Shown one piece after another: positions 5,192 to 20,615 of a DNA stretch of 21,162 bases. Numbering within the stretch: position 1 is the first letter of the stretch; every line of letters begins with the position of its first letter. The position numbers and the translations under genes are program-made. Under the pieces are notes generated by a model. That model was not told the DNA's origin and did not search any database. It saw nothing but the letters and a program-made list of their open reading frames with translations. The DNA comes from a virus. The stretch is taken from IMG/VR virus record IMGVR_UViG_3300021197_001212, positions 1 to 21,162 of that record. One strand, 5' to 3'.

Positions 5192-6139
5192 TTAATTAAT
5201 TGATCTTCCAACAATGTCTATTATTCTACCGCTTTCGGCTATCGTTCTGCCAGGATTGTCAATAATTCTAAAATCTGAGATTGCAGTTTTCTGCAACGTT
5301 GCAGCCATTGTTATTGTGATTGTCTGTGTTCCGACAATAGACGTATGTTGCGTGTAGTTTAAAGTAGCCGCTGGTGATAAGTTAATTGGTACAGCGCCAA
5401 CAATGAAAGCGCCGCTAGTATAACTAAGTGTAGAAGCTGGCGATAGCGTGATCGTTTGGCTGACAACAATGGCATGATGCTGATTGTAACCAAGCGTTGA
5501 TCCGATTGATGCTGTGATCGTTTGCGTGCCGACAATATTGTGATGTTGATTGTAATCAAGCGTTGCGCCAATATTAGCTGTAATTGTTTGACTGCCGACG
5601 ATTGCAGCGTTTCGCGTATAGTCTAGCGTGGCGGCTGGCGATACTGATATTGTTATATCGCCTACAATATTAGCCGACCCTGTATAGTCTAAAGTAGCTG
5701 CTGGCGTAAAGCTAATCGTCTGCGAACCTACAATCGAGGCGTTGCTCGTATAATCTAACGCAGCGCCAACCGATAACGTGATTGATTGACTACCTACAAT
5801 AGACGAGTGTTGCTGGTAATCTAGCGTTGCAGTTGGTAAAGCTGTTACCGTTACCGCGCCTACAATAGCTGAGTTTTTACGATAGTCTAAAGTAGCCGCC
5901 GGTGTAACTGATACCGACTGACTGCCTATAATTGATGGGTTTTGCGTATAGTCTAAAACTGAACCAATCGAAGCCGTTATTGTTTGGCTGCCAACAATAT
6001 CGTGATTAGCCGCGTAAGCCATTGTAGCGGTTGGCGATACTGATACTGTCTGCGTACCAACGATTGAATAACTGGAAGCTCCGGTCGCTTCCTTCGCACC
6101 AATCGCAACGGCGCCAAGAGAGCTAGCACCTAATGACAT
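5192..6139 (-). CDS. Repeat-rich virion protein of twelve 22-residue units, unknown function
   Basis: A 315-residue protein I cannot assign to a named family. Residues 1-25 are a small-residue leader (MSLGASSLGAVAIGAKE). Residues 26-289 are twelve tandem 22-residue units with the consensus IVGSQTITxSPAATLDYTxN, the last one degenerate. The C-terminus is a charged tail containing two similar segments, RIIDNPGRTIAES and RIIDIVGRSI. Alternating hydrophobic and Thr/Ser residues suggest two short beta strands per unit, as in a beta-solenoid or stacked fibre. It starts with a good ribosome site (AAAGAGG) and lies within the late structural operon between fibre-like and connector genes, so a virion surface role is likely. 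No signal peptide or membrane segment is seen. Confidence 0.7.
   Translation of the reverse strand: MSLGASSLGAVAIGAKEATGASSYSIVGTQTVSVSPTATMAYAANHDIVGSQTITASIGSVLDYTQNPSIIGSQSVSVTPAATLDYRKNSAIVGAVTVTALPTATLDYQQHSSIVGSQSITLSVGAALDYTSNASIVGSQTISFTPAATLDYTGSANIVGDITISVSPAATLDYTRNAAIVGSQTITANIGATLDYNQHHNIVGTQTITASIGSTLGYNQHHAIVVSQTITLSPASTLSYTSGAFIVGAVPINLSPAATLNYTQHTSIVGTQTITITMAATLQKTAISDFRIIDNPGRTIAESGRIIDIVGRSIN
5273..6064 (-). repeat. Twelve tandem 66-bp coding repeats
   Basis: Each unit encodes 22 residues beginning IVG (or IIG/IVV) and spaced exactly 66 bases with no indels. The unit boundaries are set by the start of the IVG triad at codon 26 of the gene. Units fall into two flavours at the mid-strand, SPAATL-like and SIGxTL-like, mixed along the array. 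The last unit loses the LDYT part. Confidence 0.93.
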
Positions 6140-19117: not shown

Positions 19118-19675
19118 CTAACTCGCTTGCCAGTGATTAGCGCAATACCAAGTATATGAACCTTTTTGGCTCGAAGTCATAGCACCAGCTTTATGACAAT
19201 GACCTACCGCGCACTTGCTGTTGTGTCCGTGAGCAATAGATCGTATGCGACCTAAACGTTTATCTTGTGCTATTAACGCATCGTGCTTGGCTATTAATTC
19301 CTGCATTTCTTCGCTTGTTCTGCCTTCGGCTTTCTTAGCTTTTGCCAGTTCTGATATTGGGTTAATGTTATGCGTTGGAGCTGGTAGAGCGGCTTGACGT
19401 TCTTTCTCCGATAGTTCTTGCTGTTCACGATTAGCTTTCATTTTCATTGCGTGAATTGCTTTTAGCGCGTCAACAATATCGGCGGGCTTGGGTGTGAACT
19501 TACATTCTATGGCGTGCTTACCGAACGCAGCCTTAATGTCGTTTAATTCAAATCCTCTTAACAGTTTCCACCATATTTCCTTTACTTCCCGCGATGGCTT
19601 GTCTTTGCCAAATAATGCAAAGTTAGTATCGAGCAACTTAACAAACTCTTGACCTGTTTCTGCTGAATTATCCAT
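19118..19675 (-). CDS. Probable helicase-loader / replication accessory protein
   Basis: A 185-residue protein placed right after the replication protein, the position of lambda P or of phage helicase loaders. Residues 1-70 form a small helical domain (EFVKLLDTNFALFGKDKPSR, then IWWKLLRGFELNDIKAAFGK, then CKFTPKPADIVDAL) of the type found at the N-terminus of G39P-like loader-inhibitors. A charged helix follows. The C-terminus has Cys155, His159, Cys160, His161, Cys178 and His181, able to bind zinc. The role, bringing the host DnaB helicase to the origin, is inferred from position and the N-terminal pattern. It overlaps the upstream gene by 8 bases. Confidence 0.68.
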   Translation of the reverse strand: MDNSAETGQEFVKLLDTNFALFGKDKPSREVKEIWWKLLRGFELNDIKAAFGKHAIECKFTPKPADIVDALKAIHAMKMKANREQQELSEKERQAALPAPTHNINPISELAKAKKAEGRTSEEMQELIAKHDALIAQDKRLGRIRSIAHGHNSKCAVGHCHKAGAMTSSQKGSYTWYCANHWQAS

Positions 19676-20444
19676 TTAACTTCTCCTGTTTAATATCTAA
19701 GATTGAGCCGTTCATGAAAGACAAATCAGTTTCAAGCCCTGTTTCTGTCTCGATAAAGCCTTCTAGCTTTTCACCTGTCCGGCAAATTAACTCAATATCA
19801 TTGAACGCTTTATTCCTGTCGTTTTGACCCATCGAAAAAGCGTCTTTACTGCATCCGTTGATCGCTGATTTTATTTGTTCTGGCGTATAGCCGTCCTTCA
19901 ATCGGTTTTTGATGGCTGTTGCTCGCTTAGGTGTGAGTTTAGTTAATGCGCTTGGTTTACTCATAACGTTTAGCCAGTAATTAAATATCAATGTCACATT
20001 ATCGGGATTGGCTTTAGCCAATGGTTTTGACTTATCTTTGTTCTTTATTGGTTTATGGTTATTGGTTAATGGTTTATGGTTAGGTGACGGCTCGTTCACG
20101 TCCTGTACACGCTTCGTGCTTTTTTCTTTACGCTTCGTTTCTCTTTCTATTGCTATTCGCTTATTTGTAACTGCGGTTTTATGATAATTGGCAAGCTCTT
20201 CTCGTATTCGGTCTTGCACATAAGCACCATCTTTAAAGGTAAAAAACTTAGTTAGCACAAATTTAACCGCCTCAATTTCCTCAGTGCTTGAAGCCCATGA
20301 CCAATCAATCGCTTCATCAGCCGTTGGGAATCTTTCTCGGTCATAACACGCGTCAATTAATAGCGTGTACGCTCCGTGCTGAAGCATGGATAATCGCCCT
20401 GCTTTCTTTGCGTAGTCGCCTATATTCTTTTTGTAGTAATGCAT
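19668..20444 (-). CDS. DUF1376 (YdaU-like) replication protein
   Basis: A 258-residue protein. Residues 1-95 are a DUF1376 domain: HYYKKNIGDYAKKAGRLSML, then GAYTLLIDACYDRERFPTAD and EIEAVKFVLTKFFT, ending YVQDRIREELANY. A basic linker (about 100-145) holds PNHKPLTNNHKPIKNK, encoded by heptamer repeats. The C-terminal domain (NYWLNVMSKPSALTKLTPKRA, then IKSAINGCSKDAFSMGQND and FNDIELICRTGEKLEGFI) is typical of phage replisome proteins. This layout matches lambda O: origin-binding N-terminus, linker with origin DNA, helicase-contact C-terminus. The start ATG 20444 follows GGGGG by 6 bases, just below an intrinsic terminator. Confidence 0.82.
   Translation of the reverse strand: MHYYKKNIGDYAKKAGRLSMLQHGAYTLLIDACYDRERFPTADEAIDWSWASSTEEIEAVKFVLTKFFTFKDGAYVQDRIREELANYHKTAVTNKRIAIERETKRKEKSTKRVQDVNEPSPNHKPLTNNHKPIKNKDKSKPLAKANPDNVTLIFNYWLNVMSKPSALTKLTPKRATAIKNRLKDGYTPEQIKSAINGCSKDAFSMGQNDRNKAFNDIELICRTGEKLEGFIETETGLETDLSFMNGSILDIKQEKLNG
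20047..20081. repeat. Five tandem 7-bp repeats inside the replication gene, candidate origin
   Basis: On the plus strand ATTGGTT, TATGGTT, ATTGGTT, AATGGTT and TATGGTT follow each other without gaps, consensus WWTGGTT. They lie in the linker part of the DUF1376 gene, as the lambda iterons lie inside O. The flanks are AT-rich upstream on the plus strand (TTTATTG) and mixed downstream. Confidence 0.75.
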
Positions 20445-20457
20445 TTACTGCCCCCAT

Positions 20458-20527
20458 AAAAAAAGCCCCTTGAATCTAAGTGTTCGCACGGGACAACAAA
20501 ATAAATCCCCACTTAGACTCAAAGAGC
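20458..20527 (-). terminator. Intrinsic terminator before the replication gene
   Basis: An 18-base arm at 20510-20527 pairs fully, counting G-U, with the arm at 20465-20482, and a run of seven T (20458-20464) follows on the minus strand. The 27-base loop contains a second small stem (GGGA with TCCC). It stands 14 bases ahead of the replication gene start, so read-through or antitermination is needed to express the operon from upstream. Confidence 0.85.
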
Positions 20528-20547
20528 CGTTTAACATTTTGTTTATT

Positions 20548-20580
20548 ATCTCAACAGGTGCGAAACTGGTTACTTGAGAT
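20548..20580 (-). ncRNA. Leader stem-loop upstream of the terminator
   Basis: ATCTCAA (20574-20580) pairs with TTGAGAT (20548-20554), and CAG with CTG extends it past a bulge. The apical loop TTTCGCAC is complementary over 7 bases to GTGCGAA (20483-20489) in the terminator loop. With the promoter at 20587-20615 this gives a transcript of roughly 120 bases made of two interacting hairpins. Confidence 0.6.
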
Positions 20581-20586
20581 ATAATC

Positions 20587-20615
20587 ATTATACTACAAAT
20601 TATTTATTTTGCCAA
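20587..20615 (-). promoter_or_regulatory. Strong sigma-70 promoter ahead of the leader RNA
   Basis: TTGGCA (20610-20615), exactly 17 bases, then perfect TATAAT (20587-20592) on the minus strand. The -35 overlaps the last codons of the HTH_39 gene. Transcription would start near 20580, at the base of the first leader hairpin. Confidence 0.75.

Follow-up and report, generated by a model that had tools for sequence, protein, structure and literature searches.

The locus studied here raises two questions: whether a short cassette of promoter, stem-loops and terminator, placed immediately before a phage replication gene, forms a genuine RNA device and, if so, what this device does to the gene behind it. 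The cassette lies on the minus strand, between positions 20615 and 20458, of a 21-kb phage contig from IMG/VR (the window, by which we mean the whole stretch of 21,162 nucleotides analysed). A first-pass annotation had offered three readings for it, namely a discrete regulatory RNA of about 120 bases, an attenuator with a tertiary switch, and an RNA acting on polymerase in the manner of the HK022 put RNAs. Judged by sequence comparison, the cassette is a real and uncatalogued RNA device, because its layout recurs in about a hundred environmental phages with the letters changed in matching pairs, and the leader that it encodes is probably a switch on the phage replication genes. These distinct sequences, many of which precede replication initiators of unrelated families, are absent from Rfam. 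If the pairings described below control termination, the cassette would be a compact RNA switch that governs whether these phages commit themselves to replication. Being written in swappable loop pairs, such a switch would be readily tested with compensatory mutants and could serve as an orthogonal part for attenuation.

Anatomy of the leader

All the features of the leader are found on the minus strand. The promoter, TTGGCA-17-TATAAT (20587-20615), agrees with the consensus at 11 of 12 positions, overlaps the 3' end of an HTH_39 gene and is the top one of ten promoter-like sites in the 1.5-kb stretch scanned. The first stem-loop, P0 (20548-20580), stands at the expected 5' end of the transcript and exposes the loop segment L0, UUCGCAC (20558-20564). 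A linker of 19 nt, which holds a segment that we call s (AACAAAAU, 20536-20543), leads from P0 to the 5' arm of the terminator stem P1 (20510-20528). Within the terminator, the minimum free energy (MFE) fold places a hairpin, P2 (20490-20509), part of whose loop is the segment L2 (AUUUUGUU, 20495-20502), followed by the bulge GUGCGAA (20483-20489), which is flush against the 3' arm of P1 (20464-20482). The transcript would end, about 123 nt after its start, in a tract of seven U (20458-20464), the first of which doubles as the final base of P1. Directly 3' of this tract, GGGGG (20451-20455) is likely to be the Shine-Dalgarno sequence of the gene behind the leader, a DUF1376 primosomal/replication initiation gene (19668-20444, minus strand, start codon at 20444), identified by its matches to PF07120 (E 1.7e-24) and to a PHROG primosomal protein (E 1.6e-32).

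The promoter, the first stem-loop and its loop are as the first-pass annotation had described them, and so is the perfect complementarity between L0 and the bases beside the 3' arm (bulge 20489-20483, 7/7 Watson-Crick), which takes up seven of the eight bases of the P0 loop. The terminator and its seven U are likewise present, with a stem slightly longer than the 18 bp reported there (19 pairs in total, about four of them G-U). A 131-nt stretch containing these elements has an MFE of -39 kcal/mol (z = -3.1), and equal stability was reached by one in 200 shuffled sequences. The L0:bulge match has a chance probability of about 0.002 with the loop letters shuffled, rising to about 0.02 if any position of the 5' region may supply the best match. 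Additionally, we found a second candidate pairing which had gone unnoticed, between s in the linker and the inner loop segment L2 (8/8 complementary). Taken alone, this match is not significant in the window (p about 0.06-0.14, both strands being AT-rich); it is, nevertheless, predicted by the comparative family described in the next section, and the two pairings together have a joint shuffle p of 0.004.

A family of leaders with the same layout

The regions upstream of the gene were compared in 40 IMG/VR relatives of the DUF1376 protein of the window. One of them (L028) has the same architecture written in other letters, with the P0 loop UUGGUCG and the bulge CGACCAA. A subsequent scan, which looked for the DUF1376 start MHYY[K/N] behind a run of T and in which complementarity was not a criterion, yielded many further leaders, which we named class A. 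Their order is P0 - s - P1 - P2 - bulge - P1' - U-tract, with a further inner hairpin, P3, and with the bulge pairing with the P0 loop, whose form is UUGGNNG. P1 has 19 positions, the 11th of which is mismatched; s runs straight up to the base of this terminator stem, and its partner is the P2 loop at the far end. The strongly conserved positions include the UUGG of L0 and the U following P2. Two further scans, with patterns that fix part of the inner loop and the bulge and leave the P0 loop and s free, gave 98 unique sequence hits. A covariance model (R1), built without the long-range pairs and run on the scan loci and the earlier members, returned 89 matches, with 84 distinct complete sequences among them; true class-A members score 75-117 bits. 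At gathering score, no Rfam family was matched by the window leader or by the class-A and class-B representatives, and the Rfam matches at low threshold were judged to be due to chance.

The window follows the class-A order (P0 - s - P1 - P2 - bulge - P1' - U-tract), with its L0:bulge and s:L2 pairings complete over seven and eight bases, respectively. Both stems have 19 positions, and the window has a G-U pair at the 11th, where class A is mismatched. The best R1 match in the window is the leader itself, in the correct register, although the score is weak (15.1 bits, E 0.032). The window lacks P3 and has UUCGCAC instead of UUGGNNG as L0, and is therefore not a class-A member proper. When 88 long-stem terminators from all loci were scanned for topology, 72 were class-A cases, and outside that class only the window and one other leader, L162, stood out, with joint p values of 0.004 and 0.0006, respectively. 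The window is thus a divergent example of the class-A layout, and the two are likely to share descent. Searching by exact pattern for the loop and arm of the window returned only chance matches in the coding DNA of other phages, and the upstream HTH_39 protein, used as a query, led to no relatives.

Covariation of the long-range pairings

In order to judge the pairings, 17 class-A members were aligned over 43 pairs, both long-range helices included; these members came from a descriptor that demands complementarity, and 93.4% of the cells in their alignment are paired. The covariation score is 0.57, against 0.19 for shuffled alignments (reached in 0 of 500) and 0.07-0.10 for slid ones. Changes on both sides of a pair were seen at three of six loop:bulge pairs and at all six of s:L2, as well as at 14 of 18 pairs in P1, four of four in P2 and four of five in P3.

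The same picture emerges from the 84 members that were collected with no condition on L0 or s. L0:bulge is paired at 7/7 in 80 of them, in 11 distinct combinations, and s:L2 at 6/6 in 73, in 27 distinct combinations. When only distinct combinations are counted, the mean pairing is 6.64 of 7 for L0:bulge and 5.56 of 6 for s:L2, both of which exceed all 500 re-pairings (maxima 6.27 and 4.85). The first-pass annotation had suggested a covariance search of related phages, and the uncompensated loop changes that would have spoken against its proposal did not occur. This covariation belongs to the class-A relatives rather than to the window's own subtype, for which no close leader was found.

Promoter placement, gene context and distribution

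Of 85 distinct class-A members, 60 have a -10 hexamer (at least 5/6) at 4-10 nt ahead of P0, while dinucleotide shuffles gave a mean of 5.8 and a maximum of 12. Matches to the -35 box are also in excess, and the window promoter is placed likewise. Given this sigma-70 -10 box 4-10 nt before P0, transcription probably starts at P0. The idea of a discrete RNA of about 120 nt is thus supported as anatomy, with the -10 box of the relatives fixed before P0 and a terminator following.

In class A, the gene downstream usually begins 8-14 nt after the U-tract. Behind the 98 hits, DUF1376 genes account for 26 cases and a replication protein with the motif MKIKNWxKFQHF for 23, and further PHROG replication initiators (O-like, DnaD-like and others) turn up in single cases. 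At least five profile families of initiators are represented. An endonuclease-like or short unknown gene sometimes intervenes before the initiator, and in 17 of the 98 hits no gene was called within the allowed distance. The genes upstream vary (P22_Cro/YdaS, RusA, MazG, HTH_39); the proposed location in a cro-replication gap is thus right for many relatives, those with P22_Cro/YdaS upstream, but not for the others.

The element was matched in 33 of 40 viral records, in 32 of which it is single copy. The notion that the element is invariably paired, with a copy for each early operon in the manner of put, was rejected, L365 alone having two. In that record, two divergent class-A elements (L365:2847-2957, minus strand, and L365:3623-3729, plus strand) stand ahead of both early operons.

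Among bacterial genomes the family is rare, the covariance-model search having found it in one of 399 genomes of one order (L299, in a prophage-like region) and in none of 369 of a broader class. In the cultured phages whose DUF1376 genes are closest (Shewanella phage X14, Vibrio phages FGH, 1.178.O and others, and Acinetobacter phages), there is no room for such a leader, as the DUF1376 gene abuts the preceding gene or sits within a few dozen bases of it. Among host prophages searched at order level, the DUF1376 gene of the window had one weak, distant match, and a search of the open-access literature found no description of such a leader.

A proposed conditional terminator and its alternatives

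The reading that we favour, on the strength of the sequence comparisons and with about an even chance of being right, is that the element acts in cis as a promoter-proximal conditional terminator (an attenuator) of the phage replication operon. According to this model, polymerase would start near 20580 and make, in order, P0, s, the 5' arm of the terminator, P2 and the bulge. While the 3' arm is still missing, two helices could form, one between the P0 loop and the bulge and one between s and the loop of P2; being nested, they would keep the 5' arm of the terminator in a loop. If this fold persists, the base of the terminator would close late and polymerase would go on to transcribe the replication gene; should the stem prevail, synthesis would end at the U-tract and an RNA of about 120 nt would be released. 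Candidates for tipping the balance are a phage protein, a host factor, the speed of polymerase or the released RNA itself. What the comparison shows is the anatomy and how it recurs, that both pairings covary in relatives, where the promoter stands and which genes lie around the element; the competition between folds, the direction of regulation and the effector are what we infer from this arrangement.

Several observations bear on the model. The window has an intrinsic terminator near the promoter and upstream of the gene to be regulated, as an attenuator should, and a nested alternative pairing which covaries in the relatives. All four partners precede the 3' arm in the order of transcription, so both pairings can form first. 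When the window RNA is folded stepwise by MFE, the L0:bulge helix is preferred at lengths of 100-104 nt, at which the 3' arm has not yet been made, and the full terminator takes over once that arm is present (-39 vs -19.4 kcal/mol). As the complete terminator is far more stable, the default read-through might be small. In class A, s abuts the base of P1 and L2 lies beyond its far end, and on A-form geometry, from which alone exclusivity is deduced, a complete P1 and s:L2 should therefore not coexist in one molecule; in the window, s sits 7 nt from the stem, so that s:L2 need not exclude the terminator there. Stepwise folding and nested pairings together point to a kinetic or factor-controlled attenuator. 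The attenuator with a tertiary switch is the best supported of the three readings originally proposed, on account of the covarying loop:bulge helix and of the second, nested pairing.

The main alternative, less probable but serious, is that the locus is mainly a small RNA gene, whose released RNA of about 120 nt acts in trans. For example, the exposed L2 loop and the bulge of this RNA could bind to s and the P0 loop in freshly made transcripts, resulting in self-limiting replication or in superinfection immunity (as with the P4 CI and P1 C4 RNAs), or the released RNA could pair with its own read-through mRNA, as IsrK does. Its own promoter and terminator make the cassette a self-contained unit with varied genes upstream, and the class-A s:L2 helix, which a single finished molecule can hardly accommodate, could arise between two of them; a precedent exists in IsrK of Gifsy-1 (PMC4825925). 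Nevertheless, loop and partner share one transcript and covary, the fixed 8-14 nt to the replication gene suggests control in cis, and there is no match to Rfam C4 or to another sRNA. Pairing in cis is also favoured by L365, where the loops of the two copies are different and each is matched within its own copy. The same incompatibility of s:L2 with the finished terminator in one class-A molecule raises a further idea, RNA-RNA pairing between molecules in loop-swapped dimers. The leaders could then be a widespread phage RNA class not described before, with the terminator as one state of an RNA-only switch, in which released RNAs pair mutually or with nascent leaders and the RNA senses its own copy number; we regard this as rather unlikely, but if true it would amount to an RNA-coded control of copy number or superinfection in phage replication, from a single sense-strand transcript.

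The cassette could also be a plain intrinsic terminator for constitutive insulation between early operons, with the pairings stabilising it or guarding the RNA from nucleases. This agrees with the very stable stem and with an L0:bulge helix which, in class A, is sterically compatible with the full stem; two covarying long-range pairings and a promoter fixed at the hairpin, however, exceed what insulation needs, and a constitutive block before an essential replication gene would require another promoter beyond it, which makes this reading unlikely. It is very improbable that the element is a binding site by which a phage or host protein (e.g. a Cro-like or HTH_39 protein, or a replication protein regulating itself) locks one fold: the RNA is defined and conserved and lies beside regulators, with the UUGG of L0 and the U after P2 strongly conserved, but the upstream and downstream proteins differ in family and no single phage protein tracks the RNA. 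Equally improbable is a put-like RNA that binds RNA polymerase and causes read-through of later terminators, in spite of the two stem-loops that open an early transcript and of the divergent copies in both early operons of L365, which recall putL and putR. The second stem-loop has a U-tract of its own, put RNAs are about 70 nt long with a different fold (PMC9378689), and nearly all the genomes are single copy (32 of 33 matched records). The earlier interpretation is thus supported in part, as regards the RNA anatomy and the attenuator, but not as regards the put-like action.

Comparison with known systems

In the plasmids pT181 and pIP501, replication initiators are under attenuators governed by RNA-RNA pairing. 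As in the conditional terminator proposed here, a promoter-proximal intrinsic terminator lies in the leader of a replication gene and the pairing of RNA loops decides; the partner there is an antisense RNA from the opposite strand, whereas here all the partners are in one transcript. The CI RNA of P4 and the C4 RNA of P1 are processed, trans-acting immunity RNAs from phage leader regions, in which loops are complementary to segments elsewhere in that region. Our leaders share with them the loops that match other segments of their own leader, but have no Rfam C4 match, and the partners here lie inside a terminator stem. To our knowledge, IsrK has no such loop-to-terminator complementarity. IsrK, from prophage Gifsy-1, is a short terminated RNA that activates its own read-through mRNA in trans (PMC4825925); a phage promoter, a short terminated RNA, a leaky terminator and then a phage mRNA recall the present arrangement, but the locus controlled by IsrK is an antirepressor/antiterminator one (PMC4825925). 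The put RNA of HK022 has about 70 nt and a triplex-containing fold, binds the beta-prime zinc domain of RNA polymerase and antiterminates downstream (PMC9378689). It resembles the window in having two stem-loops early in a phage early transcript, but put has no terminator of its own and the second stem-loop of the window is one, with seven U. Finally, the int-alpA RNA (RF02996) occupies the same slot before DUF1376 genes (in L013) and has pseudoknot-like complementarity, but with another fold and consensus, and the window does not match the RF02996 model.

Other leaders

Additional leaders with complementary segments were seen in the course of this work. RNAs resembling int-alpA stand just upstream of the DUF1376 gene in L013, L012, L014, L017, L023, L037, L059, L061, L087 and others, with a single Rfam match to RF02996 among them (L013). 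Their loop is complementary to a segment past the U-rich stretch, near the Shine-Dalgarno sequence, in about eight different matched pairs; this is likely to be an unannotated pseudoknot of the int-alpA family. A further set of leaders (L047, L102, L120 and L127) reaches the same result by means of two hairpins with complementary 7-nt apical loops, the loop pairs of this set being GUACCAG/CUGGUAC, GGACUAG/CUAGUCC, GUACGAG/CUCGUAC and GGACAAG/CUUGUCC. The divergent leader of L162, upstream of a gene at about 1245, has the class-A topology, with TCAGACCC/GGGTCTGA and CGCAGAGG/CCTCTGCG paired round a long terminator. L035 has a leader with a different fold, located about 110-30 nt before its DUF1376 gene, in which the hairpin loop CTACCAA is complementary to a TTGGTAG that lies further downstream inside one and the same outer stem. 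Elsewhere in the window, in the structural gene region, positions 5192-6139 (minus strand) encode a 315-aa protein with about a dozen repeats resembling IVGSQTITxxxxATLDY, which is probably a repetitive virion or tail protein.
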